The translations under genes were made by a program, and so were the position numbers. DNA of 64,000 nt from Paratrimastix pyriformis (Eukaryota > Preaxostyla > Paratrimastigidae): contig JAPMOS010000011.1 in assembly GCA_027972325.1 (NCBI GenBank), positions 436,501 to 500,500 of the forward strand, in the 5' to 3' direction. This document shows, in pieces, positions 23,393 to 55,791 of this stretch. Within the stretch, counting starts at the first letter, position 1. Each line of letters starts with the position of its first letter. The notes under the pieces were generated by a model. That model was given only the letters and a program-made list of their open reading frames with translations, was not told the origin of the DNA and made no database searches.

Positions 23393-24783
23393 ATGAGTTT
23401 TTCGTTTTTCAAGAAGAAGAAGAGCCCTGTTGAACTCGTCCGGGGGATTCAAGAGATTTTGCATACACTTCCTGAACGGCAACGCGATCCTCGGAACATG
23501 GAAAAGGTCTGATTCAGGCCTTATTGCCTTTTTGCCGAAGCCATCTTTGTTCTGGGCCCTTGCGGAACGCACAAGACCGTCGAGGAACTCTCCAAGCTTC
23601 TGGCGGCCACAAAAGTTGTTCTTTACGGAGACGCAGAAAATGAGGCCAACCCGGAATCGATCGCCCAGCTTGTCTCTGAAACGGTACAGAGTGACATTTT
23701 ACCCCTCCTTATCACCAATTTGGAGGTGGCAGAATTCGAGGTTTGTCCTGCGTTTCCCCCTGTATCCGCTCATTCGCCATCCAGAGCCGAAAGGACATCG
23801 CAATGATTTTCAACGCCATTTTGCGGAGGGAAGTCGGTGGTCAAAGTGTTGTACAGTATCTTTTGGTCCATCCCGAGGTGATTGAAACACTGGTGAGGAG
23901 GTCTGCTGTCATTCAATGTTCTGCGGACGAACTTGTCTTGTGTCAAGCTACGAAAACGTTCCCATTGCCCTCACTGCCGGCAACATGCTGCGTGAGCTAT
24001 TAAGTTATGAGGTTCTGGCCCGGCAGCTCCTTGAGAGCGAGTCCTTCTATAAGTTCTTCAGCTACGTTGAGATGTCCAACTTTGACGTTTCCTCCGATGC
24101 TTTCGCCACTTTCAAGGACTTACTCACTCGCCACAAAGCAATGGTTGCCGACTTTCTCGCCCGCAACTACGACCGAGTGATGAGTTCTTACGCCACCCTC
24201 CTCAACTCGCAGAACTACGTCACCCGCCGGCAGTCTATCAAGGTACGCTTTGTTTTGCGTCCGGGGGGGGGGGGGGGGGGCTTTAAAGGGGGATGTGACT
24301 GCTTGCCCTGTTGTTCATCGATCTCCCGTGGATGGGTCTTGTGGGGTGTGGCGGCAGCTGCTGGGGGAACTCCTCTTGGATCGGGCCAACTTCTCTATCA
24401 TGACGCACTACATTAGCGAACCCAATAACCTCAAATCCATGATGATGCTCCTGAGGGACCACTCCAAAAACATCCAATTTGAGGCCTTCCATGTTTTCAA
24501 GGTCCGCCATTTCTATTCTGTTCTTCTTCCTCTGATGAAATTGGGGACGGTGATGGATATGTTGATGCAGGTTTTTGTGGCCAACCCTCAAAAGCCTGCC
24601 CCCATCGTGGAAATATTGGCCAAGAACAAGGACAAGCTCATCCAGTTTCTGACCAACTTTCACAACGACAAAGGTTGTTTGTACTTGAGCTTCCATCCCG
24701 TTGGTTCTAACATTTTTTCGGCAGAGGACGAGCAGTTCAACGAAGAAAAGCAGCTTCTTCTCCGCGAGATTGCTCGCCTGTGA
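23393..24783 (+). CDS. CAB39: MO25/CAB39-like scaffold protein
   Basis: Seven exons: 23393-23506, 23576-23740, 23785-23900, 23948-24242, 24358-24501, 24571-24673, 24725-24783. They add to 996 nt, a 331-aa protein close to the roughly 340 aa of animal MO25. It starts [12 protein letters not shown], like MPFPFGKSHKSP of CAB39, and keeps the family hallmarks [73 protein letters not shown] and [11 protein letters not shown]25 is a helical-repeat scaffold that activates LKB1/STRAD and germinal-centre (STE20/MST) kinases. All phases agree, so the model is firm. Donors are GTCTG, GTTTG, GTCTG, GTACG, GTCCG and GTTGT. The intron at 24243 carries a G run of about 17. The gene is markedly less GC-rich than its neighbours. 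Confidence 0.95.
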
Positions 24784-24979
24784 TGCCGGCCCTCTGGTTT
24801 TTCCACTTCTCCGGAATTCTGTGATTGTAGCTTACGCGTCCTCCCAAAACATCTATCAATCTCTTTCCGCATATTGACTTGGTGCTTGAGTGGCGCGTTC
24901 GCTCCAAATTTTTGCTGGTTCACCCTCGGGATTCTCACACAGTTTCCGAAAATCAAAAAAAAGGGGGGGCAGCTCGGCA
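24784..24979. other. Intergenic spacer between MO25 and the DUF4485-like gene
   Basis: 196 bp, AT-richer than the coding sequence to its right. It must hold the MO25 3' UTR and the next promoter. No clear AATAAA or TATA-like element stands out. Confidence 0.5.
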
Positions 24980-26863
24980 ATGAGCGAGTTTGAGAGATGC
25001 CTCACCTCTGTTGAAGCGCACCTCTCTTCACTCACTCGTCTTCAAATTGTCCGTGTGCGGTCTTGGCTCCAGAAGCTCCGCGCCGAGCCAACTTCTGCCC
25101 ATGCCTGGAAGAAAAACCGCGACCTTTATGCCGCCGTTTTGGAAAGGATGGTGCTGGCCAAAGTATTTACGCACCCTTTTGATAAAGCTCCCCCGACGGA
25201 ACTTTTCCAGCTCTCACCGTATCTCTACCAATCTGCCATCTTTGAGGGGCTCCAGTTCCAGCCACCGAAGCGGCAGGCCTGTTGGTCAAACGAAGATTGG
25301 CCCTCACTTTCTTTCTCGAAATCAGGCTCCTCCCGGGGCACCCGGAGGAGCTGGCCCTGGCCCGCCCTCCCCTCCGCCTCGTCCTCGGCTCCGCGCGCCC
25401 CAACCCGCTATTCGCATCATTTCGCCTGCTTCCAGCCCTCGCCGCCACCGCGCACCCCCGGCCAGACCCCCCACGCCCACCTGGCCCGGAGCACGGGTCC
25501 TTCGCCCGGGGGCCGGTCCGCCTCGGCCGGTCGGTCGCCGGCCTACTCGCCCGAGGGCCCGCCCCCCCCGCACGCGGTGGTGCCCTGCCTATCGGTCTCG
25601 GTGGACCTGCCCTCGCCCGGCAGCTCCGAGGAGGCCCCCGCCCCGCCCGATGGTGGCGGCCCCTCTTGTCCTGCCCCGGGGGAGTCCGCCCCAGGCCGGC
25701 CGGCCCTCTCGACCATGGAGCGCTACCAGGCCCTCCTGGACGCCACCTTCAACCGGCGCTCCAGAATCGCCGGCCCGGCGGCCCGCGGGGCGCCCCTCTC
25801 CGGCACCACCACCATCCGCTATGCGGCCACCCCCTCGGCCGGCCCCACCCCGGGCGGCGGCGGCATCTCGCGGGCCACCAGTCGCCCCAAGGCACGCCCC
25901 TGCTCGGCCACCCCGGCCGCCCTGCGGCCCGCAGCAACCGGCGCCCCGGAACCCACCGGTTGGGCGGCCCTGGGGCCCGTTGACCCCTCGCTGCGCCTGC
26001 CCGCCCTGGTGGTCAGCCCCCCGGGCCCCGCGGCGGCGGGCCGGCACCACCCGCCCGCCCCCCCTGCCGCCCTGTCCTCGCCCCCCAACGCCGACGCCCC
26101 GCCACGGGCAGCGGGCCATCCTCGTCCCCCCGCCGCCCAGCAGCAGCAGCAGTGTGGGGCGCGCCCCTCCTCTGCATCCCGCTCTGGGTCCATGCCGCCC
26201 CGTCAGGGGGCCCCGGCTACGGTGATACCCACCTCGGCCCTCACCGCCCCTGCCCCTGCTCCCACCCCTGCCCCTGTCCCTGCCCCCGCCCCCGCTCCAT
26301 CTCGAGGCAGACCTTCTCAGCGGCAGCAGCAGCAGCAGCCCGCGGCCCCGCGGCCCGAGCCGGGCCAGCCGGCAGGCCGGACGGCGCCCATCCCCATCCC
26401 CAACAAGACCGAGGCGGCGGCCCTGTCGGGCCCCATCCCGGGATCGGCCAAGTCGCCCAACGTGCTCAGCCACATCGCCCTCCCTGCCCTGGCCTTCCCC
26501 GCCCCCTCGGGGGCCCCCGCGCCCAGCGTGGGGCCGGTCGCGACCTCGCCTGCCCAGGTCGGCCGCGAAGGCGCTGCCGCCGGGCCCCCGACGCCCCTCC
26601 GCCCCCGCCGGGTGGCCTTCGCCTCGCCCCTGGGGCCCGCCGGGGCCGCCGAGGATGTCGAGAGCCTCATGCTGAGCACCACCATGGCCCAGGCCGACCT
26701 CCTCGCAGCCCCCGCCCCCCTTCTGCCCCAGCCCCAGCCCCAGCCCCAGCCCCAGCCCCAGCCCCAGCCCCAGCCTCAGCCCCAGACACACGCCGCCCCG
26801 CCTCGGGCCGACGAGCCGTCCGCCGACCTGCAGGAGCGGGCCCGTGCCCGCCGCATCGAGCAG

Positions 26864-26900
<37 letters not shown>

Positions 26901-27611
26901 ACAATAGCCAACCGCAACCGGATGTCAAGCCCCATCCCCAACCGCAGCCCCAACCGCATCCCCAGCCCCAGCCCCAGCCTGCTCACCCTCAGGGAGCCAG
27001 GCCGCAAGGCGATGGGTCGCCCCAGGCAGCCCCTTGCAGGCTGTGCGGCTGCGTGCCCGGGGCCGCGGGTGCGGGTGGCGGTGCCGCCGCGGCCAGCGTG
27101 TGCGGAGGGTCCGCCGAGGCCGAGGAGCGCCGCCAGCTGGAGGAGAACCTCCGCCGGGCCGTCGGGGCCCTGGCCGAGATGGAGCAGTGGGGCGCGGTCT
27201 GCCGGTCCCCCATCCCCCTCTGCCAACATGCCGCACCGCCGCACCGCCGCACCGCTCCTCACCCTCCGGGCTGCGGGCTGCGGGCGGGGACAGGTCTACC
27301 AGGGCCACATGGCTCAGTGCGAGGGCCAGCTGGCCGTCGAGGCGGCCCGGGCCAACGCCCTCCAGTCCCTCGTCGAGGTCCGCCCCCCGGCCTGCCCCCC
27401 CGGCCCCCGGCCCCCGCCCCCTGCAGCTCCCACCCCCTGCAGCTCCCACCCTCGGCCCGACCGACCACTCACCGCCACTCGGCTTCGCCCCCCCCCCCCC
27501 CCCCCCGCTCCCCCGTCCCCCGCCGCCCGGCAGGAGGCCGAGGTGGGGCTCCGCAGCCAGGCGGGATGCATCGGCTTCCTCCGGGCCGCCCTGGCGGAGG
27601 CCCATCGGGCC

Positions 27612-27682
<71 letters not shown>

Positions 27683-30362
27683 TGGATCGCCCGTGGCCCC
27701 GCTCCCCTCCGCGCCTCGCCCCGAGCAGCCCGCCGCCGCCGCCGGGGCACAGCCTCCCGCTACGGCCCGGGGCAACTCTGGCCCCGACAGCAGCACCAAC
27801 AGGCTCACAGATGCTCCCCCTCCCCTCCCCGGCCCCTCTGCGAGCCCCTCGGGGGCCTCCCACGCGCGGCATCACCGGGATCGCCATCCCTCGTCGCCCC
27901 AGCACCGACCCGAGGCGGGGGCGCCCCCCGCGCCGACTGGGGCAACCCCCGAGGTGCCGCCCCCCGAAGGCGGCGAGGCGGCCAGCCCCTCCTTCGCCGA
28001 GGCGGCCGGGTCGACGGTCGTCCGCCGGAGCCTCTCCACCTCGGCCTCGCCGTTCCCCCCGGCCGGCCCCGCCGCCATCCCTTCCTCCCCCTCCTCCTCT
28101 CCGATGGCCCTCGGCGACGCCCGCGGGGCGGCCCCCACCACCGACCAACCGCAGCTGCAACGGGCATCATCCCACACCCCGGCCCCCCCGGCCCCGGCCC
28201 CGGCCCCGACGCCCAGCCCGGCCCCGGGCGCCACCAGCAACACCACCACCAGCAGCTCGCTGGACGTGCTCAACACGGCCCTGATGTGCCCCTCCCGGTC
28301 GGGGGCGCCCACGCCCACCCCGCCGCCCGTCCCGGGGGAGCCGCTCTTCCCTGGGGGCGCCCTGGCCATCCTGCCCGCCCTGACGGCCTGCCCGGGGCTG
28401 GACGCCATCGACGCGGCCCTGATGCTGCCCTTCCGGCTGGTGCCCGCAGCCCCGCCCGCCTGCCCGGAGGCGCCCCCGCCCCCGCCCCTGGCCGCCCACC
28501 AGGCCGAGGGACGCCCCATGACCGCTGCCCAGGGCGGCCCCGCGACCGCCGCGGCAGCGCCCCCTCCCGCCCCCGCTGGGTCGCCACCCACCGCACCCGG
28601 ATCCCGCACCCCAGCAGCAGCCTTCCCGCCCACAGCCGGTGCCCCTGCCCAGGTCAGTCCCCCCGCCCCCTCTGCCCCCTCCCGTCCTTGGCCCGCGCAT
28701 CCCCCCAACCATCCCGGCGCTCACCGCCCGCCCTTCCCTCTTGGCGACCGACCACCCAGTTGGCCTCCGCCGACCGTGACCGGGACCGCGGCGACCGGAC
28801 CCTCGATGACCCGCCCGCCGCCGCCCCCTCGGAGCTGGGCGGGGGCTCGCTTTATCTGGGGCTGCCCCCGCCCCGCCACCGGGTGGGCCCCCAGGGCAGC
28901 TTCGAGGAGAGCCCCATCCTGGCGGCCTCGCCCTCGCCCTCGCCCTTCTCGCCCGCCGTGGCCCCGCCGGCCCCCTCGGAGGCCCCCTCGCCCGGCCCGC
29001 CTTCTTCCCAGGGGGCTCCGCCCCGCCTCTCCGCCGGCGCCGGCGCCGGTGCGGCGGGCTCCTCGTCGGCCCCCTCGGGCCGCCCGGGGCCTGAGGGCGG
29101 GCCGCCGGTCCTGTCGACCCCGCTGCTGGACGAGTCGACCTTCCTGAACGGGTCCCTGGGGCTGCCCGAGCAGTCCACCATGTGGGTCTCGGCCGAGCTC
29201 TCCCCCGGGGCCGCCGACCGGGAGCGGCGCGACCTCGAGGCCATGGCCGCCCGCTACTGCGGCTGCGACGTGCACCTGCTCCAGCAGCGCCCCCTGGCGA
29301 CTGCCCCCGCCGCCCCCGCCCCCGTCGGGCCGGCCCCCCGTCAGGGCTGGGGCGCGGCACTCGCCCCGGGCGTCCCCGGGCCCGACGAGGCCCTCTCGCC
29401 CCCGGGCACCCCGCCCCCCGTCCCGGTGGTGCTGGACATTAGCACCCCCGAGGAGGAGGCCCTGACGGCCGCCAGGGCGCGCCGCCACCGGCCCACCTCA
29501 TCCTGGGGCAGCGGGGCCCCCCTGGAGGCGGCCCTCGAGCGGCCCCTGCAGGGACCCGAGGGCGGGCCGGTCGCCCCGGCCGAGCAGCAGGAGCCCTCGC
29601 AGGACCAGGGGTCGCCCCTCTTCTCGCCGCCCCTCCACCGCAGCTCGGCCGTGCCCTCGCGGCCCCTGATGATGGCCCCGGCGGCCAGCATCATCGCCCC
29701 GGCGGCCGTTAGCCCCCAGCCGCCGCCCGGCCCCAGCCCCAGTCCCGCCCCCAGTGGGGGCCCTCCAACTTCATCGCCACCGCCCGCCATCAGCTCGTCC
29801 CCCAGGCAGCCCGACCCCTCGCGAGGAGGCGCCGGCGCGGCCCTGGAGACGTCCGTCAGCAGCACCGCCGCAGCCACGGCGGCGCCCAGCAGCCTGGCGG
29901 CTCCCCCCGAGGCCCCCGAGGCCGCAGCGGAGGTGGAGGCCAACCTGGTCGAGGGTCCCTTCTTCGCGGCCTTCGCCCAGGGTCCCGAGGCCGCCCCCTG
30001 CAACCCCGGCCGAGGCCGAGGCCGAGGGGGTGCAGGTGGCCTACCCCGAGCCGCCCCAGCCCCAGCCCCAGCCCCAGCCCCAGCCCCAGCCCCAGCCCCA
30101 GCCCCAGCCCCAGCCCCAGCCCCAGCCCCAGCCCCAGCCCCAGCCCCAGCCCCAGTCCCAGCCCCAGTCCCAGCCCCAGTCCCAGCCCCAGTCCCAGCCC
30201 CAGCCCCAGTCCCAGCCCCAGTCCCAGCCCCAGCCTGCCGAGGGCGCGGGGGCACGGGGGCCCACCGAGGAGGCGGAGGAGGAGCTGGGCGAGGCCGTGG
30301 ACGGAGACATGCAGATCGAGCTGCAGCCCAGCCCGGGCCCCGCGCCACCCTCGCTGCTCTGA
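24980..30362 (+). CDS. Large Pro/Ala/Gln-rich protein with N-terminal DUF4485-like domain
   Basis: ATG at 24980. The first ~90 residues match the DUF4485 pattern: FERCLTSVEAHL, RVRSWLQKL, KKNRDLYAAVLERM, THPFDKAPP, ELFQLSPYL. The rest is low-complexity (poly-Pro, Pro-Gln, Gln-Gly and Ala runs) with conserved-looking islands: STMERYQALLDATFN, VESLMLSTTMAQADLL, SLDVLNTALMCPSR, GLDAIDAALMLPFR, RRDLEAMAARYCGCDVHLL. Introns: donor GTCTGC near 27196 to acceptor near 27292; GTCCGCC near 27378 to near 27532; GTCAGT near 28652 to about 28760. The last part changes frame near 30005 (C run) and then reads a GC3-rich acidic C-terminus ending PGPAPPSLL at 30362; without that change the frame stays open to 30588 with poorer codon use. 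A centrosome or cytoskeleton role is only a guess from DUF4485 context. Confidence 0.65.
27610..27680. repeat. (GGGACA)n in coding sequence (Gln-Gly run)
   Basis: About 11 copies of a hexamer encoding alternating Gln and Gly within the Pro-rich protein. Confidence 0.85.
30057..30236. repeat. (CCCCAG)n in coding sequence (Pro-Gln run)
   Basis: About 30 copies of CCCCAG with some CCCAGT variants, encoding a Pro-Gln stretch near the C-terminus of the large Pro-rich protein. A shorter similar run occurs at about 26727-26785. The shift in reading frame of this gene lies just upstream. Confidence 0.9.
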
Positions 30363-30657
30363 CCCCCGGCGCCTCTTCATTTGGCCGCCCAGGAGCACCC
30401 CTGGCGCCGCGCCCTGTATATTGTGATCGCCCTCACCCTCCCCTCCTCTTTGGCCGCTCCTCGTCTCCCCCCCGTTCGCTGCCCGCACACACCCGGTGGC
30501 CCGATCGGAAAAAAATGCGCCGCCTGCTGGGGCGGCTCTTGAAGCCATCGATGATCGAGTGGCGGATAAATAAATTAGGGGGGTGACGGAGGAGAGAAGG
30601 CTCCTGCCGGCCGGGCGAGCGGGCCGCTCGGGGGGCGGGGTGTGTGCGCGTGTGCGC
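30363..30657. terminator. Convergent 3' region between the Pro-rich gene and the membrane-protein gene
   Basis: About 295 bp separating two convergent stop codons. An AATAAA hexamer at 30569-30574 on the plus strand could serve as polyadenylation signal for the Pro-rich gene. No other structure seen. Confidence 0.35.
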
Positions 30658-31656
30658 CTAGTGGTCCTTGGGCTTGGGCTGGTCGGCGGCGGGCAGGAGG
30701 CCCTGGGCGACCTCCATCGAGACCCGGTAGAAGAGGTACTCGGAGGCCAGGATGACCCAGTGGAAGAGCACGTTGAAGGTCAGCCAGGGCGGGAAGCTGA
30801 TGTGGCTGATCTGCAGGGCGAAGGCCACGAAGACCACCAGGATGTACAGCAGGAAGTACCGGAAGGGCAGCACCCGCAGCTCGGGCGGCTGCACCGACAG
30901 GGCGCACAGGTTGGCCGGGTCGGAGAACTCGGCCGGGGTGGCGGGCCCCGCCCGCCGGGCGAAGAGGCCAAAGAGGACCGCCGTGATGCAGCCCGAGCCC
31001 ACCGAGATCAGCACCGCCACGCCGCAGTAGAGGAAGGGCGTGTCGATCCGGGACAGCAGCACGTACATGAAGAAGACAAAGACCGTGTTCACGAACCAGC
31101 GCAGGCCGCGCCGGACCCCGGGGAGTTTGTGGGGGCAGAAGACCAGCATGAAGTAGGTAGCAAAGAGATTGCACGCGTAAACGGCAGCCTGTGGGGGAGA
31201 CAGCGAGAGAGTGCCCGCCCAGTGACGGGAAGGGCGGGGAAAAAGGGTGCGGGTCCAGACCACATCAACCTTCCAGAGGTAGAAACCGAAATCTGGGGGA
31301 TCGTCGCACTGATACCAGGCATGCTTGAAAAAGCTTGGGGAGCGAGTCAGCAGAAAGTGGTGCGAAGGGGAACAGACCCAAGGACTGAGGACAGGAAGAA
31401 GCTGGCGGCAGTGTCGAAGTGAGTCGGAGAGAATGGGCGAGGCGAAAAAACCAGACAAGAACATGTGCCAGAAGGCAGAGCGATGATGTTTGGGGAGGGC
31501 TTTCCACATCCGGATCGAGAAGAAGAACATGCACAAAGCATTCAGCAGGTCCGAGCATGCGGTAGAAAATTCCTTTGGGTCCCCTCCGATGTATTTCACA
31601 ATCCCCGAGTTGGCGGCCCGATCGGAGAGTTCATACACGGTCTCCAGGAACCCCAT
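30658..31656 (-). CDS. Multi-pass membrane protein, family unknown
   Basis: Three exons: 31656-31457, 31333-31270, 31188-30658, giving about 264 aa. It starts MGFLETVYELSDRAANSG and has about six hydrophobic helices, including LLNALCMFFFSIRMW, AVYACNLFATYFMLVFC, VNTVFVFFMYVLLS, LYCGVAVLISVGSG, YFLLYILVVFVAFALQI and LTFNVLFHWVILASEYLFY, with a short charged tail ending QPKPKDH. The first intron was set at GTCTGG...CCCCAAG (31334-31456) because its donor fits the local consensus and the join continues the frame. The second is 31189-31269. Both are multiples of three, so unspliced mRNA also stays open. I do not recognise the family. Divergent from IFT70 with a 70-bp spacer. Confidence 0.7.
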   Translation of the reverse strand: MGFLETVYELSDRAANSGIVKYIGGDPKEFSTACSDLLNALCMFFFSIRMWKALPKHHRSAFWHMFLSGFFASPILSDSLRHCRQLLPVLSPWVCSPSHHFLLTRSPSFFKHAWYQCDDPPDFGFYLWKVDVVWTRTLFPRPSRHWAGTLSLSPPQAAVYACNLFATYFMLVFCPHKLPGVRRGLRWFVNTVFVFFMYVLLSRIDTPFLYCGVAVLISVGSGCITAVLFGLFARRAGPATPAEFSDPANLCALSVQPPELRVLPFRYFLLYILVVFVAFALQISHISFPPWLTFNVLFHWVILASEYLFYRVSMEVAQGLLPAADQPKPKDH

Positions 31657-31726: not shown

Positions 31727-34156
31727 ATGATGAGCACGATTACCCAGATTCCCGAGGGAAACATTACAAAAACAGTATACTCTCTGATTCGTGACCGCAA
31801 ATTCGGCGAAGCAATCCGACTTCTCTCTGGTTTCCTTCAAACTTTCCCAAAAGATCGTGGCGCACTCTCTCTGCTCGGGTTCTGCCACTATCAAGTGGAA
31901 GATTTCGAATCGGCTGCCCCTATGTCTGTGGTCTTTTTGAGTTCTCTGACCCGTTCCATCGACCCGACTCCTAGTTATGAGCAATTGGCGCGGCTCTTTC
32001 CCCAGGTGGATGAGTACAAGACCTACTACGCCCAGTCCCTCTGGAAAGCCGGACAGTATCAAGATGCTGAAAAAGCTTGCAAGACGAACGATAATCCCCA
32101 ATTCAGCCACACGGTCCATATCGCCCCCCCCCCCCCCACCACCACCACCACCACCACCAGCACCCACCCACCAGCACCCACCACCCCACCAGCACCCACC
32201 ACCCTCCTCACGACTCACTCCGACCGGGCGGTGGGGTTGGACAGATGATGAAGATGCAGGGCCTGATCAAGTACGAGCAGGACGAGCTGGCCGCCTGCCA
32301 GGACATCCTCGAGGGGTGCGTGCGGGACGACCCGGACGTGATGATCACCCAGGCGGGGCTGCTCTTCAAGGAGGAGAAGTTCGACGACGCCGCCAAGAAG
32401 TTCATCGACGCCATCAACACGGTCGGCTACCAGGCCGACCTGGCCTACAACGTGGCCCTGTGCAACTACCGCCAGAAGCAGTACGCCATCGCCCTGAAGT
32501 ACATCTCGGACGTCATCGACCGGGGCATCAAGGAGCACCCCGGTCCGCCCTCGCAAACTCTGCCCTCTACCCCTCCCCCGGGGGGGCGCCACGTCAAGCT
32601 CCGCTCGGGCCTCGAAATGACCCTCCCCTCCTCATCTCCTCTCATCTCCTCCTCCTCCTCCTCCTCCTCCTCCTCCTCCCTCCCCCGCCCTTTTGTCGGT
32701 GCTGATCGTCGGCTTGGGCTGGCTGGGCTGTGCGCGTGTGGGCCCCATTGGCGGGCGCAGGAGGCTCGGAGAGCCGCTCGGTGGGAACAGCCAGACCCTG
32801 AAGGAGACGGCCCTCATCGAGGCCTTCAACCTCAAGGCCGCCATCGAGTTCGACATGCACGAGTGTCCGGCCCCTGTCCTTGCCCCTTGCCCCTTGCCCC
32901 TTGCCCCTTGCCCTTTGCCCTTGCCCTTGCCCTTGCCCCTTGCCCTTGCCCCTTGCCCTGCCCTTGCCCTTGCCCCTGCACACAGCCACCCCTTGCCCCT
33001 GCACACAGTCACCCCCTTGCCCCTGCACACAGTCACCCCCTTGCCCCTGCACACAGCCACCCCCTTGCCCCTGCCCCCTCATCCCCCTCATCCACCCACC
33101 CGCTGACCGGTTTGGGGGCCGGGCAGTCGACCGAGCCCGGGAGGCGCTGAGCGAGATGCCGCCCCGGAGCGAGGAGGAGCTTGACCCGGTGACGCTGCAC
33201 AACCAGGCCCTGATGGGCATGGAGGCCGACCCCGAGGGCGGATTCACCAAGCTCAACTACCTCCTCACCAACGTCCGCTGGCGCCCCGCCAACCCCAATG
33301 CCCCCCGCCCCCCGCCCCACGGGCAGCCGGCTCGCTCCCCCCGCCACCCTTCACACACCCGCGCGCATACCCTCACTCGTACCTGGCCTGGGCTTCTGCC
33401 GGCACAGCCGCCCTTCCCGCCCGAGACCTTCGCCAACCTGCTTGTGCTGTACTGCAAGCACGAGAACTACGACGCGGCCGGCGAGCTGATGGCCGCCAAC
33501 GGGATGCTCGTCGCCAAGCTGCCCCCCGTCCGCCCGCACAACCCGCCCCACCAACGCCCCACCAGCGCCCACGCCCCTCCCTCGCCACCATCGCCCCCAC
33601 GCCCCACCCCGCCACCGCCGGGCCGCCCCTTCTCACGTCGACCACCGGGTGGGGGGGCTGGTGACCGTGGCTGGGGGTCCGCTGGGCGGGGCGGGGCAGG
33701 AGCTGCGGGAGTTCCTCGAGGCGGTCATCGTCCAGCAGACCAGCCCCGAGGAGGCCTACCGCAAGTTCGACCTGCTCGCCACCAGGGTCCGTCCGCCCGC
33801 CCGCCCGCCCGCCCGCCCTACCTGCGCCCTCTCTGCGCCCTCTCTGCGCCCTCTCTGCGCCCTCTCTGCGCCCTCTCTGCGCCCTCTCTGCGCCCTCTCT
33901 GCGCCCTCTCTGCGCCCTCTCTGCGCCCTCTCTGCGCCCTCTCTGCGCCCTATCTGCGCCCTCTCTGCGCCCTATCTGCACCCTCTCTGCGCCCGATCTG
34001 CGCCCGATCTGCGCCCTGCTCCCCTTCCCTTGCTCCCCGCGTCCCGCCGCCATTTGGGGGATCACCATTCATCATGGGTGATGGCTGGCTGCCCTGGGGT
34101 GGTGGCGGGGTGGTGGCGGGCGGTGGGGCGGGCGGTGGGACGGGCGGTGGTGTTCG

Positions 34157-34187
<31 letters not shown>

Positions 34188-36157
34188 CGTGGGGGCGGGG
34201 CAGCGGATCGAGGAGGTGCGCCGGCTGGCGAAGACCCTGCAGGACGTCAAGGCCCGCCAGGAGGAGGCCGCGGCCCTGGTGCTGAAGGACTTCGACGCGG
34301 CCCTGGAGGGGTACATCCCCATCTTCATGGCCCAGGCCAAGATCTACTGGGACCTGAAGAACTTCAACCAGGCCCTCAAGCTCTTCAAGCAGTCCGCAGG
34401 TCCGTCCCCGGCGGGCCGCTGCCTTGCCCCGCGCCCCGGGCGCCTCCGCCTCCACCCTCGCCCCCCCCTCCCCCCCCCCCCCCCCCCCCCCCCCCCGCTC
34501 CGGGCGGGAAGCAGTGGCGCCGGTCCCATCCCCTCCCTCCCTCACCCTCCTGGCCTCCTGTCCTGTCCTGGCCTTCCTGTCCTGTCCTGTCCTGGCCCTG
34601 GCCTGGGCAGACTTCTGCTCGGACAACGAGACGTGGAAGCTCAACCTGGCCCACGTCTACTTCATGCTGGAGCAGTACCGCGAGGCCATCCGCTACTACG
34701 ACCCGTTCGTCGACAAGAAGCTCGACAACGTCCGCCACACGCACACAGACACACACGCAAACAGGCACTCCGCGCCCACAGGACCCACTCGGACCCACTC
34801 GGACCCACTCGGACCCACTCGGACCCACTCGGGCGAGACACTCACGGCACCGCCCACCGCCGCCTGGCTGCGCTGGGGGGGGGGGGGGGGGGGGGGGATT
34901 CCGGCGGGTCCGGTGGTGGTTGTGCAGCTGCTGGAGGTGACGCCCATCATCCTGGCCAACCTGTGCGTGGCGCACATCATGAACAACCGCAACGAGAGCG
35001 CCGAGGACCTCATGCGCAAGATCGAGCGCGAGGAGGAGCGGGCCGTCTTCCAGGACCCCGAGAAGCGCGTCCGCACACGCACAGCCGCCCCCGCACACAC
35101 ACGCACGCACACACACACACGCACGCCGCATGCCCCCACTCCACCGCCATTCACGCCCCCACCCGACGGGCACAGGCTCCCCCCCCCCCCCCCCCCACGA
35201 TTGGCGACATCGGCAGACGTCGACCTCTCGCAGTCGGTGAGGTGATGAGGCCCCTGGTCGCGGCTCCCTGCCGGGCGTGCTCACCGGGGGATGTGCGCTC
35301 TCCCTGGGGCCGCGCGATGGGTGGGTGGGGGTGGGGGTGGGGGTGGCGCAGCTGTACCACCACTGCATCGTCAACCTGGTCATCGGCACGCTGTACTGCA
35401 GCAAGAGCAACTTCGAGTTCGGCATCTCGCGCATCATGAAGTCCCTCGAGCCATACCCCAAGAAGGCCCGCCCCGGCCCCTGCCCCGGCCCCGGCCCCGG
35501 CCCGGCCCCGTCCCCGGCTCTGGCCCGTGCCCCTGCCATGGGATGGATGATGATGTGTGTCTGTGTCTGTGTCTGTGTCTGTGTCTGTGTCTGTGTCTGT
35601 GTCTGTGTCTGTGTCTGTGTCTGTGTCTGTGTCTGTGTCTGTGTCTGTGTCTGTGTCTGTGTCTGTGTCTGTGTCTGTGTCTGTGTGTGTCTGTGTCTGT
35701 GTCTGTGTGTGTGTCTGTGTCTGTGTCTGTGTGTGCTGTGGGCAGCTGAACCCGGACACGTGGTACTACGCCAAGCGGTGCTTCGCGGCCCTGGCGGAGA
35801 ACCTGGCCAAGCACGTCTTCATCCTCAAGGACCAGAACTACCAGGCCCGCCCGCCCTACCGCCCTCCCTGCCCCTGCCCCTCCCGCCCACCCGCCCACCC
35901 GCCCGCCCGCCCACTGGTGGCGACACCACCCGCCCGCGACCTGCCGTGACGCTCCCTTCGGGCCGGCTTGGGTTGGGCCGGGGCCGGGGCCGGGCTGGCT
36001 GCAGGAGGTGCTTGCCTTCCTGGACGCGGCGGACAGCTTCGGGGCGACCATCTCGGCCTCGGCCACCAGCCCCGGGCCGGTCGTCGAGGGCGACGGGACC
36101 GCCACCATCGCCCAGGAGGCCCGCGCCCTCAAGCGGATCTTCCTCCGCCTCAGGTAG
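31727..36157 (+). CDS. IFT70: Intraflagellar transport protein IFT70 (TTC30)
   Basis: TPR-superhelix subunit of IFT-B that wraps IFT52 and serves ciliary assembly. Thirteen exons set by similarity to TTC30: 31727-31923, 31975-32113, 32245-32542, 32761-32864, 33127-33272, 33408-33527, 33700-33786, 34204-34399, 34611-34729, 34928-35068, 35352-35465, 35746-35844, 36005-36157. Hallmarks: TALIEAFNLKAAIEF, EELDPVTLHNQALM, PPETFANLLVLYCKHE, MAQAKIYWDLKNF, ILANLCVAHIM, HHCIVNLVIGTLYC and DTWYYAKRCF. Exons sum to 1913 nt, one short of 638 codons; the missing base lies in exon 4 at about 32783, where RSVG runs out of frame with NSQTLKETA. Expected product about 637 aa, near the usual 660. Ten introns begin GT (eight GTCCG); the two after exons 11 and 12 begin GCCCG. 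Confidence 0.95.
32872..33100. repeat. TTGCCC-rich low-complexity array in an IFT70 intron
   Basis: Pyrimidine-rich repeats of CCCTTG type, followed by about five copies of a 20-odd-bp unit containing CTGCACACAG, occupy the 262-bp intron 32865-33126. Confidence 0.8.
33824..33990. repeat. 11-bp minisatellite in an IFT70 intron
   Basis: About 14 copies of CTGCGCCCTCT fill the 417-bp intron 33787-34203, which also holds a G run of about 29 bases (34159-34187) some 15 bases before the acceptor. Confidence 0.9.
35553..35738. repeat. (TGTCTG)n hexamer array in a GC-AG intron of IFT70
   Basis: About 30 nearly perfect hexamers occupy most of the 280-bp intron 35466-35745, which starts with GC rather than GT. 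The array is pyrimidine/GT-rich and abuts the acceptor. Confidence 0.95.
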
Positions 36158-37540: not shown

Positions 37541-37571
37541 ACACCCGCCAGGGAATTCTCCAGGCCGCCCC

Positions 37572-48012: not shown

Positions 48013-48111
48013 CGGCGGGCAGCCACACCTCCGAGCGAGTGTTGGACCGCCCCTGCGCACAGTAGAGTTTGCCCTTTAGGTCTTTCCCACTGTTCCGTAT
48101 CGAAACAAGAA
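48013..48111. promoter_or_regulatory. Short divergent promoter region (histidine kinase / EGF membrane protein)
   Basis: About 100 bp between the 5' ends of two divergent genes, AT-richer than their bodies. No identifiable element. The exact starts on both sides are unsure. Confidence 0.4.
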
Positions 48112-50170
48112 TTGCTCGTCACCAGAGCAGCCGATAGGAGTCAAGGAGAAGGGGGATTCAGTTGTCGTCGTTGGCGAGAATTATTATGGATCCTTCTCCT
48201 CACCTCCTTGAGCCACGTTTGTGCAACCCCTTGGAATTATCATCACTCCGGAGTTGCTCGCAGTGGTGAGGCTGGCGATGTTCCATGGGACATCGTCCTT
48301 CCAGTATTTGCTAATCAGACAGTGCTCGATCTCACCGATGGGGCAACTCTCTGCTTGGCCCGGGCCCTCGTCCCAATTTCTGCCCACGACGGCCTTCCCG
48401 CGTACATGGCGTGCTACTCTGAGTTTCCACTGGCCCTCGATTTGGAGTCGGGCCATTGGCGATTCTCCGTGCGGACCGCCCTGGCCGAGGTGGCCTTCAA
48501 CCTGACCCTGTCGGCCTCGGTGTGCGAGTGGGCCAACCGGACGGGCACCACCCCGCACGAGTGCGATATTTGTCTGTGGCTCGTCCTCCTCGGGGCAGCC
48601 CCTCCACCTCCACTTTTTCCGCCCCCCCGGTGGCGCAGACCTCCGGTCCCTGAGCCTGTGCTACCCCAAGACGGGCTCGATCGCCCCCTCCGCCCCGCAC
48701 TACTTCACCTTCCTGGTCTGCCCCTCCCGGTGACCCGCCCGCCCGCCCGCCCGCCCGCCCGGGCCTCCGCCTGGTGGGCTCATCTCATCTCATGGGTGGG
48801 GGCCACCGGGCCACCTTGGGGGCTGGGCGACCAACCGCAGGTGCCGACTGTGATCTCGCAGCTCTACCTGACCCTGCGCCCGGTCCTGCCCCTGGCGGCC
48901 CCCCTCAACCTCTCGCTGGCCCTCCGCTACGGGCACCCCGCCCACCCAGGCGTGGCCGCCCTCAGCCCCGCCCGCGAGGCGTACACCGGCCGGGTCGTGT
49001 GGAACGAGAGCAACCCCGCCATGTCGGCACCCCTCCTTCCGAGCGGCGGGGCCTCGTACCCGGTGCCCGCCGACGCGGCCCTGGTCGTGGGCTACCCCCG
49101 GGCGGGCCAGTGGTACCTCACCATCCTCTGAGAGGCCCCCGCCTCTGCCGAGCCGCCCGTCGCGTACACCATCCAGGCCTGTTTCGACAAGGGTCCGTCG
49201 CCTGCCTCGGCGCTGCCTCTCTCGGCTTCCCTCCTCCCAGCCCCCATTCATCCCAATGCCCCACGTGTCTGTTCTTCGATCGCGGTGCCTCGCCGGGTGC
49301 GGGCCCAGTGTGCCCAGACGATCACCCGGGGCCCCAGTGCGACATCCGTCCGTCCCGCCCTTGGCCCGCCCAACTGCCTGACCTGCCCCCCCCCCCCCCC
49401 CCCCCCCCCCCTGCTGCCGTCCCTCGCGCTCACCTGCCTCCTCCCTCGGCTGGCGGGTGACCGTTGGCGGCGCAGCGGCGACCCTGTTCGACAACAGCTC
49501 GATGCCCCACCCGACGCCCATCGACCCCACGCGGCCCCTGCTCTTCTTCCTCCCCGCCTGGTCCGCCCCGCACCCAGCCGCGCACCCAGCCGCGCACCCA
49601 GCCGCGCACCCCGGGCCGTGTCGCTCACCACGCCGCGCCCTGCCGCTCTTGGGGGGGCTGCCCAGGGGCTGCCCGTCGGGACCCGATCAGCCGCTGGACT
49701 CGCTCGTGCTCTTCCTCACCGCCTGCTTCTCGGTCAACCGTCCGTCCCGCCCTTGTGCCCTTGTGCCCTTGTGCCCTTGTGCCCTTGTGCCCTTGTGCCC
49801 TTGTGCCCTTGTGCCCATATGCCACGCCCACGCCCGGACTCGGAGCCTAGTTTCCACGTTTCAATTCCGGCAGTGGCATTCCTTGTTCAAGCCCGAGAAC
49901 TCCCGTGCATCAGCGCAGGGGGCGTGACCGGCAAACGACCCAGCATGCCCGTGCCCTGTCTCATATCCAATCCGTCCCCTTTCCGCCCCCGCCGCCAGAG
50001 CGCTCGTGCGTGGCCAGTTCGCTGGGGCCCGTGCCGCTGAACATGACGCTGCGCTGGGGCAACGTGCCCTCGGCCAGCCGGTTCGACCTGCAGGGCAGCC
50101 CCCTCGAGATGGCCTCCGTGCTCAGGGTCCGCAGCACCACCCGCAGCACAGCAGCCCCCCCAGCAGCCCC

Positions 50171-50203
<33 letters not shown>

Positions 50204-51814
50204 TCCCATGGCATGTCGTGCCCAAGGAATCGGCCCGCCCCTCGCCGGTCGTCCTCATCGCCTTCCCGCCTCCCGCGCCGGCGGGTTTGGCGGGCTCGAT
50301 GGAGCCGTTCCCATTGCCATTGCTGACCCCTCCAATTCCCTTCCCCCCCCCCCCCCCCCCCCCCGTGGCGGCGGCAGGTGGACTGGCTCTCGCCCTACGT
50401 GCCGTGGTACCTGGCCCTGACGGCCACCCTGCCCCCCGATCCCGACGGCTCCGAGGGCCCCGACGGCGCCGGCACCGCCGCCCCTGCGGCCATCGGCCCC
50501 GGGACCCTCCGAGCTGCCCTCGACTCCCCCGCCCCGGCGGCCACCCCGTCGCCCCCGCCGGGGCCCCCGCCAGCCCCACCGCCGAGCAACGGGAGCGAGC
50601 TGGTCCTGCTCCAGTGGGCCCTCGAGGCGTGCCCCATGGGCTGCTACGAGCAGGCCGGCCACGGTCCGCCTTGACTCTTTCTCCCGCCTTCCTGCCTTCC
50701 CGCCTTCCGTCCCTCCCTCCCTCCCCGGGCTGGCTGCGCTGATCGCCGTGCCCCATCCCCCGAGGATGGGTCCACTCATTGGCCTCGCCCTCTCCGTCCT
50801 CACGCCCGCTTCCACCACCACACCACCGCGCCCCCTCACTGCTGTGCCACGGGGGGCCACACCGCAGGCGGCTGCTCGCTGCCCTCGCCCACTTGGGTGC
50901 CCGTGCCCGTGCCCGCCTCCCTCCACCCCTCCTCGTCTCCGTCTCCGTCCCCCCTCCACCTGTCCCCCTCCCTCCTCTCGGCCCTTGCCGGCTTCCTGGC
51001 GAGCCGCCCCGACCCGCCCCGGGGACCCCTCCTCTCCCCCCACCCGCGGGGGGCCGCCGAGCCGGCCGGTGGGATCCCCAGCTACCGCCTCGACTGGCAC
51101 GGGCCCACAGCGGGGCCCGGGATCTGCCGCTGCCTGGGCAACTACTCGGGGCCCCTGTGCGGGTGCCCCTTCGACTGCTACGCCGACGCCCGCCACGGGG
51201 TGTGCGCTCACTCCGGTCCGCAGCTGCGCAGCATCCGCCGCCTCGCCCCTGCCCGTCCCACCCCGGCGGCCCCTCCCCATGTCCCTTCCTCGTGTCCCTT
51301 CCTCGTGTCCCTTCCCCACCTGCTTCCTTCCCCACCTGCTTCCTTCCCCACCTGCTTCCTTCCCCACCTGCTTCCTTCCCCACATGCTTCCTTCCATCCC
51401 CCGGGTGCGGCGGCCTGGTGGTGATGGCCAGACGAGTGCCACTGCACCCCCCCGTACTCGGGCCCCTGGTGCGAGTCGCGCCCCGTGGAGCCGTGGAACC
51501 CGGCCCCGGTGATCATCGCCAGCTCGGCCGTGGGGCTGGCCCTGGGGGTGGTGGTCATTCTGGGGGCCGTGGTCCGGGTGCGCCGCTCCCACCGGCGGGC
51601 CGCCGCCGCCGCCGCCGCCCAGGCCGAGAACTACGACGCGGGCTGGTGGCGCGAGACCCCCCAACCCGGCGGGGGCATCCGCGACTACGCCCGCCCCGCG
51701 AGCCGGGCCCCGGCGGGGGGCACGGGCAGCCCCATCCTGGACGACCACATCGGCGAGACGGTGGGCCTGCTGGCCGACGACGACCAGGAGCAGCTCGTCT
51801 ACAACGGCTACTGA
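48112..51814 (+). CDS. Type I membrane protein with EGF-like domains
   Basis: The N-terminal exon carries a signal peptide core (LLWILLLTSLSHVCA) and N-glycosylation sites. Later segments include LCYPKTGSIAPSAPHYFTF (about 48650), VISQLYLTLRPVLPL (48850), GQWYLTIL (49110), TLFDNSSMPHPTP (49485), QGSPLEMASVL (50090) and VDWLSPYVPWYLALTATL (50380). Near the C-terminus two Cys-rich EGF-like pieces (ICRCLGNYSGPLCGCPFDC near 51125, CHCTPPYSGPWCES near 51440) precede a single TM helix (VIIASSAVGLALGVVVILGA) and a cytoplasmic tail ending EQLVYNGY at 51814. Probably a surface receptor or adhesion protein. No ATG is visible in frame upstream of the signal peptide, so the true start may be in an unseen small exon. 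The exon at about 48840 meets an in-frame TGA at 49129-49131, after which the same frame continues with coding character. Exon edges are approximate. Confidence 0.6.
49743..49815. repeat. 8-9 bp CCCTTGTG array in an intron
   Basis: About eight copies in an intron of the EGF membrane-protein gene, next to the exon ending FSVN at a GTCCG donor. Confidence 0.85.
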
Positions 51815-52106
51815 GAGAAGGGCCCCCCCAGATGCCCACACGCACACACACCAGCATGTACGCCAACACCACGCACGCACATTCTTCCCGTTCTTCGGAG
51901 TTCGCGCGGGAGCGGCCGTTGGCCGGCCCGATGTTCTTCCATTCTTTGAGTGGCCTTCCTTTTGGGGGGTGAATTCCCCTCTTTCAAGATATGCCGTGTA
52001 TTTTGCAGTCGAGTCGACCCACTTGGGGGAAACTCCGGGGAAACTCCGTGGCCGTCGAAATGGCTAAAACCCCGTAAAAGGGCGCTTGAGGCAGAGCCGT
52101 TTTTTG
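51815..52106. promoter_or_regulatory. Intergenic region upstream of the kinesin
   Basis: 292 bp between two genes on the same strand, turning AT-richer toward the kinesin start (52107). A short CGGGGAAACTCC direct duplication occurs at about 52025-52050. No recognisable promoter motif. Confidence 0.4.
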
Positions 52107-55100
52107 ATGAGCGCAGAGTCGTCAAACATTAATGTATCAATTCGTCTCAGACCTTTAGACGCGGCGCATGAGGATGAAGTTGCTCAGCATTTTGCATTTA
52201 ATGCTGCTCAACCGGGCTTGATTTCCATTCGCGCACCTGCCACCCGCACATCCACGGATCAAACCGATGGAACGACCTCCCAAGAGCGCGAATTCCCCTT
52301 TGATCACATTTTCCATACGAGTTCCACACAGGAGGAGATTTTTGAGCATGTCTGTGCGATGATGCCGCCACTCTTCCCCGCATTCGCCCCCTCCCCTCGT
52401 CCAGGTTCGTCCCTTGGTCATGCATGTTCTCGAAGGGTTCAACGCATGCTGTTTCGCCTTCGGCCAGACGGGCAGCGGGAAGACCTACACCATGATTGGT
52501 GAGGGGGCCCGGCTGCGGGGGCTCATCCCCCGGTGCCTGGAGCTCCTCTTCTCCAGCCTGGCAGCCCGGAGCCACCCCCCAGGCACGGCCGGCGCCACGC
52601 CGCCGGGGCAAGTTCCCCGGATCGACGACGGGCCCGACCCGGCGGGCCGGCGGGCCTCGGTGTTCGTCTCGCTGGTGGAGATCTACCTCGACCAGGTGCG
52701 CGACCTGGGCAAATAGTCCGCCCCGGCCCGCCATGCCCCTCCTGCCCAACCACACCACACCCCGGCACCATCCACCCCCCCACCCCCCCTCTCCCCTCGG
52801 TTCTGTCCATGGGTGGCTGACGGGGCATGGCTTGGTCATGATGCTGCAGCTACAGCCCCGCCGAAATGGCCCCGTCCGGATGCCCCGCGGGGGCCCCGCC
52901 ACGGCCTGGCTCTGCCCAATCATCGCAGGTCGGCCCACTCGGTCTGGCGACACTCACAAGCTCTCGCCCCCTCGCCCCCTCACTTCCTCGCCTCCTCGCC
53001 CACCCGGCCACGAATCGTCGCGGACTCACACCGCCCACCCTGCCGCCACCCCCAGGGCGGCCATCGGCCGTACCGCTCAGCGGCCGCCGCAGCGGGCTCG
53101 AGCGGCTCGAGGTCTGCGCCCCGTCGCCGTCGCCACCGCCACCGCCCTCCCCTGCCCGCCTGCCCCTCTTGGCCGGTGCCTGTTTCTTGGCCTTGTTCCG
53201 GCAGTGGCTCACAGCCGAGCGGTCGGGCGGCGGTGCCGGGCCATGCTGATGCTGGGGGTGTGTGTAGAGCGACGACTACGTGTACAGCTCGCTGGACATC
53301 CGCGAGAGCCCCGACGGGATCATCTACGTCAAGGACCTCACCGCCATCCCCGTCCACTCGGTCACCGAGGTCCGACCAGCCCCCCCCCCCCCCCCCCCTC
53401 CTCCTCCTCCTCCTCCTCCTCCTCCCCAGCATGGCCCGGCACCGCCAAGCACTGGTGAGGTGCGGTCAGGTGTGGTTCGACCCTCACGATGCACGATGGC
53501 GTCTGGGGGTCTGGGCATGGGGGGCATGGGGGGCATGGGGGGGCACGGGGGCAGATCTTCGAGATCCTGCGGCGGGGTCTGGCCAAGCGGGCCACGTACG
53601 GGACCGACATGAACGACGTGTCCTCCCGCTCGCACACCATCCTCACGGTCAACCTGGTCCAGACCAACGGCCCCGCCGGTCCGCGCCCTCCGCCGCCTCA
53701 CACTCCTCCCTGGCCCCGCCTCACACTCCTCCCTGGCCCCGCCCCCGCTCCCCCCCCCCCCCCCGAACCCCATGGTGGCGTCTGGCCGGCCTCGATGCTG
53801 ACGTTCGCCATTCTGACCGCTCGGGGGGGTGGGGCGGCAGGCTCGATGGGGCCGGGGGGCATGGGCGGGGCCGAGGCGGGCGAGACGACGAGCAGCTTCC
53901 TGAACCTGGTCGACCTGGCCGGCTCGGAGCGGCTCTCCCGCAGCCACAGCACCGGCCAGCGCCTCAAGGAGGCAGCCATCATCAACAAGTCCGCAGCCGG
54001 CCCCTCCCCCTCCGTGCCCGCTCCCCCATCCGCCCCAACCCCCGTGCTGACCCTCCGCCGGGGGGGGCGCGGTGGCAGATCGCTGAGCGCACTGGGGAAC
54101 GTCGTGCGGGCCATCAACTGCCGGGACGACCACATCCCCTACCGCGACTCCAAGCTCACCCGCATCCTGCAGAACTCCCTCGGTCCGGCCCAGCCTTCCT
54201 TCCCCCGGGGGGGGGAGGGGAGGGAGGGGAGGGGGTGTGGTGTTGTGGAGGGGGGTGCCGCCTTGGCTCACCTGCGCGTCCACGATGCAGGGGGCAACGC
54301 CTTCACGCACCTCATCGCGACCGTGCACCCGGCCCTGGCCAACCACGACGAGTCCCTGGCCACGCTGCAGTTCGCCCACCGGTGCCGCAACGTCACCAAC
54401 CAGCCCCGGGTCAACTACATGGACACCGACATGGCCTCGCAGGTCGGGCCGCGCCCCCCCCATCGATCGCCCCTCTGGGGCGGGTCTTCATCCCCTGGAT
54501 GGGATTTCCGGCCCGCCTTGCCCCCCCGGGTAGGAGCGGCGCATCAAGCTGCTGCTCGACGAGGTTGCCTCGCTCAAGCACCGCCTGGCCGAGGCCGAGA
54601 CGGGCAGCACGAGCCGCCTGCAGGCCATGCAGACCCAGATCCAGCAGTACCAGCAGGTCCTGGGCCCGGCCGGGGTCGGAGGGGGCTCCGGCGGGATGGC
54701 AACGAGGGGCCCCGAGCCTGCCAAGCTGCTCGGTCTGCCGCGGTGACATCGCCGCCGTGGGGGGAGGACCCACCTGACCCGAGGCGGTGATGCCGGTCTT
54801 CTTCATTTCGGTGGTTGGGGGGCGGGGGCGGGGGGCGGGGGGCTCTTAGAGTTGGCCCGAAGCGACAACAAATTTCTGCGTGATAAGCTCGAGAAGCGCC
54901 GGCAGGACTTCCAGTCCGTCCAGCGGCGGATCATGGAGGAGAAGGAGCGTCACGTGCAGGAGGTCTGTCAGTTTGCTGACGGGGACCTCATTTTCCGGTG
55001 CAGTCCCAATCCTTCAGGAAACGAATGGAGACCCTGGCGAACGATATCCTCGTTGGAAAGCAGGTCTGTGTAGCCGACCTTCCGTCTTTTCATCTTTCAT

Positions 55101-55791
55101 CTTTTGCTATCAGGACCTGGTTCTGGCCATCAATCAACAACTTGCGGCTCACGAAAGCGAGGTGAATGCTTTGATCGCGCACAACCAATCTCTTCTCCAG
55201 GTCTGTCCCTCCTCAGAGCGCCGATCAAATGGTGCAAACTTGCCGGAAACAGTTGGGTTTGCCAGGGAACACCACTCATTTTCAAAATTTTAAATGGAAG
55301 AGAAGAAGGCTGAAACTCTCCCCACCAAGCGTGCGCCACCAAAGATTGTGGATGACGATGAAGAGGAGCACAAAGGTCAGATTTTTTCCTTGTTGACTCG
55401 ACGATCCTACCCTCCTGTACCCATCTCTCGGTTCTGAAGAGGTCAAAGTGAAGAACGAGAAACCTCCGAAGCCGGAGCCGGAGGAAGAGAAAAAGGAAGA
55501 GGAGGAAGAGGAAGAAAGCAGCAGCGAAGAAAGCAGCGAAGAAAGCAGCGAAGAAGAGAAACCGAAGCAGAAAAAAAAGCCAAAGAAGTCTCGCGATGAC
55601 GATGACGATGGTGACAGTGATCTTGCCAGCATTCACTCGAGTGATTCGGGTCTTTTTCCATTATTGCCATGTTTGCATTGCTCATATTCCCCTTAGAGGG
55701 CATCAGCACTGAAAATGTTGTTGCCAGTCGTACACGTGGGCGTGTTCTTCACTTTACTCCGGCCGATTTCGCCGGTGCTGACGATGATTAA
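52107..55791 (+). CDS. N-terminal-motor kinesin
   Basis: Fourteen exons: 52107-52349, 52405-52715, 53270-53369, 53565-53678, 53841-53988, 54079-54182, 54291-54442, 54534-54732, 54850-54970, 55018-55073, 55114-55200, 55303-55375, 55440-55649, 55697-55791. They total 2013 nt, a 670-aa protein, all phases agreeing. Motor landmarks in order: NVSIRLRP, the P-loop [21 protein letters not shown], switch I VSSRSHTI, switch [19 protein letters not shown] and [16 protein letters not shown] coiled coil follows ([43 protein letters not shown]), then a Glu/Ser/Lys-rich tail and a short end [16 protein letters not shown]-driven microtubule transport; the family cannot be fixed from motifs. The exon-8 join (LLG|AG to LLELARSDN) restores heptads, and the 53989 donor restores INKSLSALG. 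Thirteen donors: five GTCCG, four GTCTG, four other. Confidence 0.95.

Follow-up and report, generated by a model that had tools for sequence, protein, structure and literature searches.

How are introns recognised in a genome whose 5' splice sites (donors) do not follow GTRAGT? This question is raised by a 64,000-nucleotide stretch (the window; C13:436501-500500) of the genome of Paratrimastix pyriformis (Metamonada, Preaxostyla), a free-living flagellate, in which three genes, encoding MO25, IFT70 and a kinesin, possess introns most of which start with GTCCG or GTCTG. Observed directly are the consensus of the donors in the genes sampled, the sequences of the genes for the U1 small nuclear RNA (snRNA) and the unchanged state of U6 and U2. 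Judged from these sequences, the introns are very probably U2-type introns that would be read with a changed 5' code, in which U1 carries AUACAGACC for AUACUUACC and the donors read GTCYGY for GTRAGT. It appears that both sides of the splicing code, donors and U1 alike, were rewritten.

An earlier note on the window had assigned 31 introns to the three genes (six to MO25, 12 to IFT70 and 13 to the kinesin), with C at +3 in 27 and G at +5 in 28 of them, GTCCG (14) and GTCTG (6) as the commonest donors and no GTRAGT. This description was borne out when the joins were placed anew: 29 introns were obtained, with C at +3 in 26, G at +5 in 27, GTCCG in 14, GTCTG in eight and GTRAG in none. The introns of MO25 and IFT70 all stand, and for the kinesin 11, against 13 in the note, are backed by alignment or an open frame (GTCCG 5, GTCTG 5, GTCGG 1) over the part in which homology was examined, up to about position 55,113. 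The spliced MO25 product equals the deposited 331-residue P. pyriformis protein in every residue, and the same joins are returned with the deposited protein as the query; an independent gene model was at hand for MO25 only, the deposited protein of the window kinesin not being among the 120 matches listed. In IFT70, C occupies the third position in 12/12 introns (GTCCG 8, GTCTG 1, GTCCA 1 and, as GC-AG donors, GCCCG 2). All 12 were placed by hand, and spliced alignment put 11 of them at identical places; at intron 3 the hand join is kept, the aligned donor being shifted 19 nucleotides downstream because of an apparent one-base frame break in the following exon. Kinesin acceptors within 52,550-53,290 are uncertain and vary with the reference protein. 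The features, with the donors in order, are the following.

23393..24783, + strand, MO25 (CAB39) gene, 6 introns; spliced product identical to the deposited P. pyriformis protein
23507..23575, + strand, MO25 intron, donor aag/GTCTG; spliced alignment
23741..23784, + strand, MO25 intron, donor gag/GTTTG; spliced alignment
23901..23947, + strand, MO25 intron, donor gag/GTCTG; spliced alignment
24243..24357, + strand, MO25 intron, donor aag/GTACG; spliced alignment
24502..24570, + strand, MO25 intron, donor aag/GTCCG; spliced alignment
24674..24724, + strand, MO25 intron, donor aag/GTTGT; spliced alignment
31727..36157, + strand, IFT70 (TTC30) gene, 12 introns; hand joins and alignment
31924..31974, + strand, IFT70 intron, donor GTCTG
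32114..32244, + strand, IFT70 intron, donor GTCCA
32543..32760, + strand, IFT70 intron 3, donor GTCCG; hand join
32865..33126, + strand, IFT70 intron, donor GTCCG
33273..33407, + strand, IFT70 intron, donor GTCCG
33528..33699, + strand, IFT70 intron, donor GTCCG
33787..34203, + strand, IFT70 intron, donor GTCCG
34400..34610, + strand, IFT70 intron, donor GTCCG
34730..34927, + strand, IFT70 intron, donor GTCCG
35069..35351, + strand, IFT70 intron, donor GTCCG
35466..35745, + strand, IFT70 GC-AG intron, donor GCCCG
35845..36004, + strand, IFT70 GC-AG intron, donor GCCCG
52107..55791, + strand, kinesin gene; 3' end as in the earlier note, homology examined to about 55,113
52350..52404, + strand, kinesin intron, donor GTCTG
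52716..52855, + strand, kinesin intron, donor GTCCG; acceptor uncertain, reference-dependent, in a weakly conserved stretch
53112..53287, + strand, kinesin intron, donor GTCTG; acceptor uncertain, reference-dependent
53370..53554, + strand, kinesin intron, donor GTCCG
53679..53840, + strand, kinesin intron, donor GTCCG; hand join keeping the frame open, alignments favoured a GC 4 nucleotides upstream
53989..54078, + strand, kinesin intron, donor GTCCG
54183..54290, + strand, kinesin intron, donor GTCCG
54443..54533, + strand, kinesin intron, donor GTCGG
54733..54849, + strand, kinesin intron, donor GTCTG
54963..55003, + strand, kinesin intron, donor GTCTG
55064..55113, + strand, kinesin intron, donor GTCTG

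In the exon that follows IFT70 intron 3 (about 32,761-32,864) the conserved reading changes frame, apparently through a one-base assembly error or break. The same gene has two successive GC-AG introns (35466-35745 and 35845-36004), both with GCCCG and preceded by AAG and CAG.

Introns were then collected across the assembly searched (56.06 Mb, 495 contigs) with a purpose-written spliced protein-to-DNA aligner, which admits only introns that start with GT (or, at extra cost, GC) and end with AG and takes no account of the rest of the donor; the GT/GC-AG ends are imposed by it, and for MO25 they yield a product in agreement with the deposited protein. A kinesin-family search gave 135 exon matches, the best 30 of which were used: 29 merged into 20 regions, and the window was the thirtieth. 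One region (C485, score 174) fell under the score floor of 300 and was dropped, so that 21 loci, MO25 included, remained. From 238 unique intron calls, 139 were kept (a margin of at least 6 score units when the chosen donor was altered, and no overlap, the better call being retained). Their donors are GTCCG (53), GTCTG (35), GTCGG (8), GTTTG (6), GTCCC (5) and others (32), and the absence of GTRAG seen in the window extends to all 139. Among the 135 GT donors, GTCCG and GTCTG account for 88 (65%), against 5.5% GTCYG in the other GTs of the same loci (binomial p about 8e-76, the sites not being fully independent), and GTRAG, which makes up 1.5% of these other GTs, accounts for none. When IFT70 was added and GC priced as GT, a margin of 6 gave 151 introns (133 GT, 18 GC; GTCCG 59, GTCTG 32) and a margin of 12 gave 108 (GTCCG 49, GTCTG 27, GC 3, two of the latter being the GCCCG donors of IFT70).

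Position by position, the 135 GT donors have C 114, T 13, G 6 and A 2 at +3 (C 34%, G 36-37%, T 21-24% and A 5-9% in the other GTs of the loci), C 67, T 47, G 17 and A 4 at +4, G in 111 at +5, and C 67, T 52, G 10 and A 6 at +6. On the exon side, -1 is G in 95 and -2 is A in 69, and -3 is C 55, A 37, G 28 and T 15. The information amounts to 0.39 bits at -2, 0.58 at -1, 0.85 at +3, 0.34 at +4, 0.95 at +5 and 0.42 at +6, with little signal beyond (0.02-0.08 bits at +7 to +10). The suggestion of the earlier note that G+5 might carry most of the recognition is therefore partly right, +5 being the most informative position, but +3 contributes nearly as much.

The genes for the RNAs that read the donor were sought throughout the genome. 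An Rfam search, in which 41 of 992 first-look candidates were scored, revealed eight complete U1 genes on eight contigs (RF00003, E 2e-10 to 4e-13), with alignments that span the whole model, positions 1-166, in the six copies displayed. A DNA search with one of them recovered the same eight and one gap-cut copy without the 5' part (L021). The copies are 96-100% identical to one of them over 156 bases, whereas their flanking sequences have only the element CCCATAA in common. Each of the complete genes starts AUACAGACCUUG; the 5' end is AUACAGACC in 8/8, in place of the standard AUACUUACC. Relative to the Rfam consensus AUACUUACCUGG, nucleotides 5-6 are AG for UU and nucleotide 11 is U for G. 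The cloverleaf was recovered in the one copy folded; the genes also have an Sm-type site, CAUAAUGUUUGG (one copy has CAGAAUGUUUGG), and the sequence of a 3' hairpin. CCCATAA is found upstream of the start, at a distance of about 60 bases in 8/8 U1 genes and in the four U2 genes read, and of about 66 bases in 4/4 U6 genes; this supports the assignment of the U1 5' end.

Two pattern searches left nucleotides 5-6 free. The upstream element combined with ATACNNACC matched 12 places, i.e. the eight U1 genes and four others, of which L089, L093 and L095 were rejected as U1 since the sequence does not continue as U1 (L089 and L093 were also checked against Rfam), and the fourth is known solely as a matched string. 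The U1 5' region gave eight exact matches, all with AG, and, with one mismatch allowed, 13 places against 11 in a reversed control. Neither pattern search found a dinucleotide other than AG at nucleotides 5-6 among recognisable U1 genes, and no standard AUACUUACC U1 was found by the Rfam, DNA and pattern searches of the assembly. As a separate observation, CCCATAATNNNNCCG occurs 225 times genome-wide, against four for the reversed control, and the 100 of these places that were listed (e.g. L022-L051) crowd on C42, C56, C58, C60 and C101; further copies of the CCCATAA element may mark other small-RNA genes.

U6 and U2 are of the ordinary kind in the copies read. U6 (RF00026) has ACAGAGA in 4/4 copies and scores 96.7 bits, above the cut-off, and the branch-recognition region of U2, GUGUAGUA, is kept in the four copies read of ten matches; alterations of U6 and of the U2 branch region were accordingly rejected. 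With seven matches to U5, major-type U1, U2, U5 and U6 genes are all present. The earlier note had supposed that recognition by U1 or by U6 was probably altered, since a standard U1 would mispair at +3 and +4, and had proposed a comparison of both with the donors: the alteration is in U1, at the nucleotides facing +3 and +4 and matching the donor shift, and not in U6. One exon of the Methyltransf_10 (METTL16) family, a match at family level, lies at C332:38824-39153, and two LUC7 loci lie at C474:74550-75448 and C46:373670-375001; METTL16 and LUC7 have been reported to bear on donor classes in other systems.

Mean binding to the organism's own U1 is -7.1 kcal/mol for donors and -3.8 kcal/mol for other GTs, compared with -3.9 and -2.8 kcal/mol for the standard U1. 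Among the 16 dinucleotides possible at nucleotides 5-6, AG ranks second at separating donors from background. G6 forms a pair with C+3 or a wobble with U+3, the two bases that donors use most at this position, in that order; standard donors take R at +3 because standard U1 has U at nucleotide 6. A5 faces +4, where U pairs and C is tolerated, and the 5' end as a whole is complementary to the donors, with tolerated A.C at +4 and +6. The helix would comprise G+1-C8, U+2-A7, C+3-G6 (or a U+3.G6 wobble), U+4-A5, G+5-C4 and U+6-A3, with C+4 and C+6 tolerated and with C9 and U10 on the exon AG. We infer that the U1 genes are expressed with the AUACAGACC end and pair with donors in the cell; which of the two, U1 or donors, changed earlier would likewise have to be inferred. 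U6 has stayed as it is, its ACAGA box already complementing UCUGU. In the human structure, U6 C42 pairs with G+5, A43 faces +4, G44 contacts +3 and A45 pairs with U+2 (PMC9803359); with C+3 and U+4 the donor UCUGU is fully complementary to U6 ACAGA.

A further likeness concerns U1 and U6 themselves. The first seven bases of this U1 and the surroundings of the ACAGA box of U6 share the heptamer AUACAGA, and since both present it, GUCUGU is the full complement of both. Standard U1 (AUACUUA) shares five of seven bases with U6 AUACAGA and differs from it just where U1 has changed, and only one of the 15 non-standard dinucleotides makes the two heptamers identical. Tentatively, and with somewhat more doubt than belief, we consider that the donor may have come under one code, in which the handover from U1 to U6 would exchange identical sequences. 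The compromise that exists elsewhere between A+3/A+4, good for U1, and the needs of U6 would be removed, and the many donors with C at +4 or +6 would be accommodated through A.C pairs or through a modified A, for instance inosine. The identity is suggestive and proves nothing by itself, as compensation to a C-rich donor alone could yield AG or GG.

Several observations weigh against a matched change of U1 and donors. GG at nucleotides 5-6 would fit better than AG (rank 1/16), and C exceeds T at +4 (53 vs 35 among GTCNG donors) though only T pairs with A5; C+4 has no Watson-Crick partner in either U1 or U6. Relative to background GTCNG, T+4 shows no enrichment (odds ratio 0.59, p 0.05; 0.26, p 9e-5, with introns alone as background), and T and C at +6 occur as in the background (odds ratio 0.91, p 0.79). 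What +4 does show is a preference for pyrimidines over purines (odds ratio 4.9, p 2e-7), which is not strict pairing; the change at nucleotide 5 therefore accounts for 'no purine' better than for 'T'. Donors with C+4 have no stronger pairing elsewhere (p 0.26). Since +4 and +6 face A in both U1 and U6, recognition must allow for A.C pairs or for a modified A. U at nucleotide 11 predicts A at -3, yet C is the commonest base there (55/135; A 37), and in MO25, the gene of lower G+C, just 3/6 donors have C at +3. The U1 scores (50.8-60.2 bits) lie under the Rfam gathering value of 69.5, a curation threshold and not a biological feature, and the alignments show both the altered 5' end and mismatches within the stems. 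A U1C gene was not found by a genome domain search, the sole zf-U1 match (C86:24800-24930, L096) being one that we take to be a zinc finger of the WBP4 type and not that of U1C; the U1C gene may be absent, may have diverged or may be interrupted by an intron. Finally, nearly all introns stem from one gene family, the kinesins, besides MO25 and IFT70, and most of the reference proteins were entered by hand.

Could the donor be fixed by U6 (C42 to G+5, G44 to C+3) together with U5 or proteins, the change in U1 being mere drift? The complementarity of U6 ACAGA to UCUGU and the contact reported between G44 and +3 (PMC9803359) would suit this, as would the leading role in final donor choice that a review of human and yeast splicing gives to U6 (PMC11732430). 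Drift is unlikely, however, to have landed on the second-best of 16 dinucleotides in all eight complete copies, and U1 ACUUACC is reported to be invariant wherever a U1 was found (in 227/230 Saccharomycotina genomes and 9/10 outgroups) despite a shifted +4 preference (PMC10581693); we regard this explanation as unlikely. Alternatively, a second U1 with GG at nucleotides 5-6 might read GTCCG, leaving GTCTG to AUACAGACC. GG is indeed the best-fitting dinucleotide, the assembly has gaps (BUSCO completeness is 76%; PMC10703272) beside one of which U1 copy L021 lacks its 5' part, and C288:230297-230317, among the 13 one-mismatch places, begins ATACGGACC, although it is known from the matched string alone. 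Yet none of the eight complete U1 genes has GG in the DNA, Rfam and pattern searches, and the reversed control gives nearly as many one-mismatch places. The one ATACGGACC site with an upstream CCCATAA, L089, was rejected as a GG-type U1: it matches no U1 in Rfam, and a plain fold of it lacks the cloverleaf. Moreover, GTCCG and GTCTG occur together within single genes and follow the G+C content of their introns (means 0.667 and 0.564), like one degenerate signal. Such a second U1 is accordingly quite improbable.

That the introns belong to the minor (U12) class or to some other class than U2, as a departure from the standard consensus might suggest, deserves hardly any credence: exon AG precedes the donor, acceptors are mostly CAG, the major-type U1, U2, U5 and U6 match, and the donors are unlike ATATCC, the minor-type consensus. 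Equally remote is an artefact of gene models or base composition. The genome is rich in G+C (60.9%, PMC10703272; 63-77% per 4-kb block in the window) and an aligner can misplace joins, but ours is flat past GT/GC, and the excess of GTCYG over its background was found nonetheless. In the quarter of introns lowest in G+C (33-51%), GTC donors with G+5 have T 15, C 9 and G 1 at +4. MO25, moreover, equals a deposited protein from an annotation in which curated genes served to train the gene prediction and RNA sequencing supplied intron hints (PMC10703272), which may or may not extend to MO25 itself. The published assembly comprises 633 scaffolds and 56.6 Mb, and the passages of the genome paper drawn on here contain no discussion of donors (PMC10703272).

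Some further features of the window were noted by eye or in passing. From 37601 onward, on the minus strand, a response-regulator receiver domain is suggested beside IFT70, and 26700-30250 contains very long simple repeats (CCCCAG runs) in apparent coding sequence. Many introns contain poly-C/poly-G tracts.

Compared with the standard system of humans, plants and most eukaryotes, P. pyriformis retains a U1 5' end complementary to donor positions -2 to +6, the U1 cloverleaf, Sm site and 3' hairpin, and the U6 ACAGA box; it differs in AG instead of UU at U1 nucleotides 5-6, in C/T instead of A/G at +3 and in C/T instead of A at +4. The GTATGT donors of budding yeast similarly have a T at +4 that pairs with the middle A of ACAGA in U6 (PMC9803359), whereas their +3 stays A and U1 keeps ACUUACC in the Saccharomycotina survey, which raised the idea of a U1 nucleotide 5 changed to A matching U+4 and found ACUUACC invariant (PMC10581693). 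Preaxostyla include free-living flagellates (PMC10703272, P. pyriformis not being named at that place) and, in the same phylum, the oxymonad Streblomastix strix shares G+5 and, with part of the P. pyriformis donors, U+4, but has A at +3 (conserved A, U and G at +3 to +5 in 21 introns; PMC1501061). In Giardia lamblia, also a metamonad, the U1 5' end likewise pairs with the donor, but ACUUAC is retained, with a U-U mismatch against UAUGUU (PMC3510501). In the diplonemid S. specki, too, the 5' end of a natural U1 has changed, but this U1 is an extra C-stretch copy beside a conserved U1, with a comparable fit to canonical donors (PMC12621601); in P. pyriformis the change affects all eight complete copies that were found, and the searches gave no standard copy. 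In Cyanidioschyzon merolae the donor-reading RNA has changed too, but there U6 changed and U1 was lost (PMC10581693, PMC11732430), while here U1 changed and U6 was kept. For Monocercomonoides, snRNA candidates were mentioned in a 2019 paper, data not shown (PMC6679479). Because the donors of Streblomastix have A+3 and the U1 of Giardia has ACUUAC, the change at +3 probably arose within Preaxostyla, as far as this comparison goes.

Few RNA segments are as conserved among eukaryotes as the 5' end of U1. This end is reported to be unchanged in Saccharomycotina in which the donor preference shifted (PMC10581693) and in the nucleomorph of Bigelowiella natans, whose introns lack a donor motif beyond GU (PMC6461891), and with suppressor U1s in the laboratory, paired changes were shown to function on a test gene (PMC11732430). 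We found no report of a comparable genome-wide change of U1 and donors among the best matches of searches in the open-access literature, most subscription papers and bioRxiv being uncovered and prior notice possible, and no open-access paper with both 'Paratrimastix' and 'snRNA'. An intron-rich genome seems to have made the paired change of U1 and donors throughout, a natural experiment on how a code common to many introns and one RNA can change, on the separate contributions of U1 and U6 to donor choice and on whether the U1 5' end is under other constraints. Software for gene finding or intron classification that is built around GTRAGT would presumably perform poorly on P. pyriformis and perhaps on its relatives.

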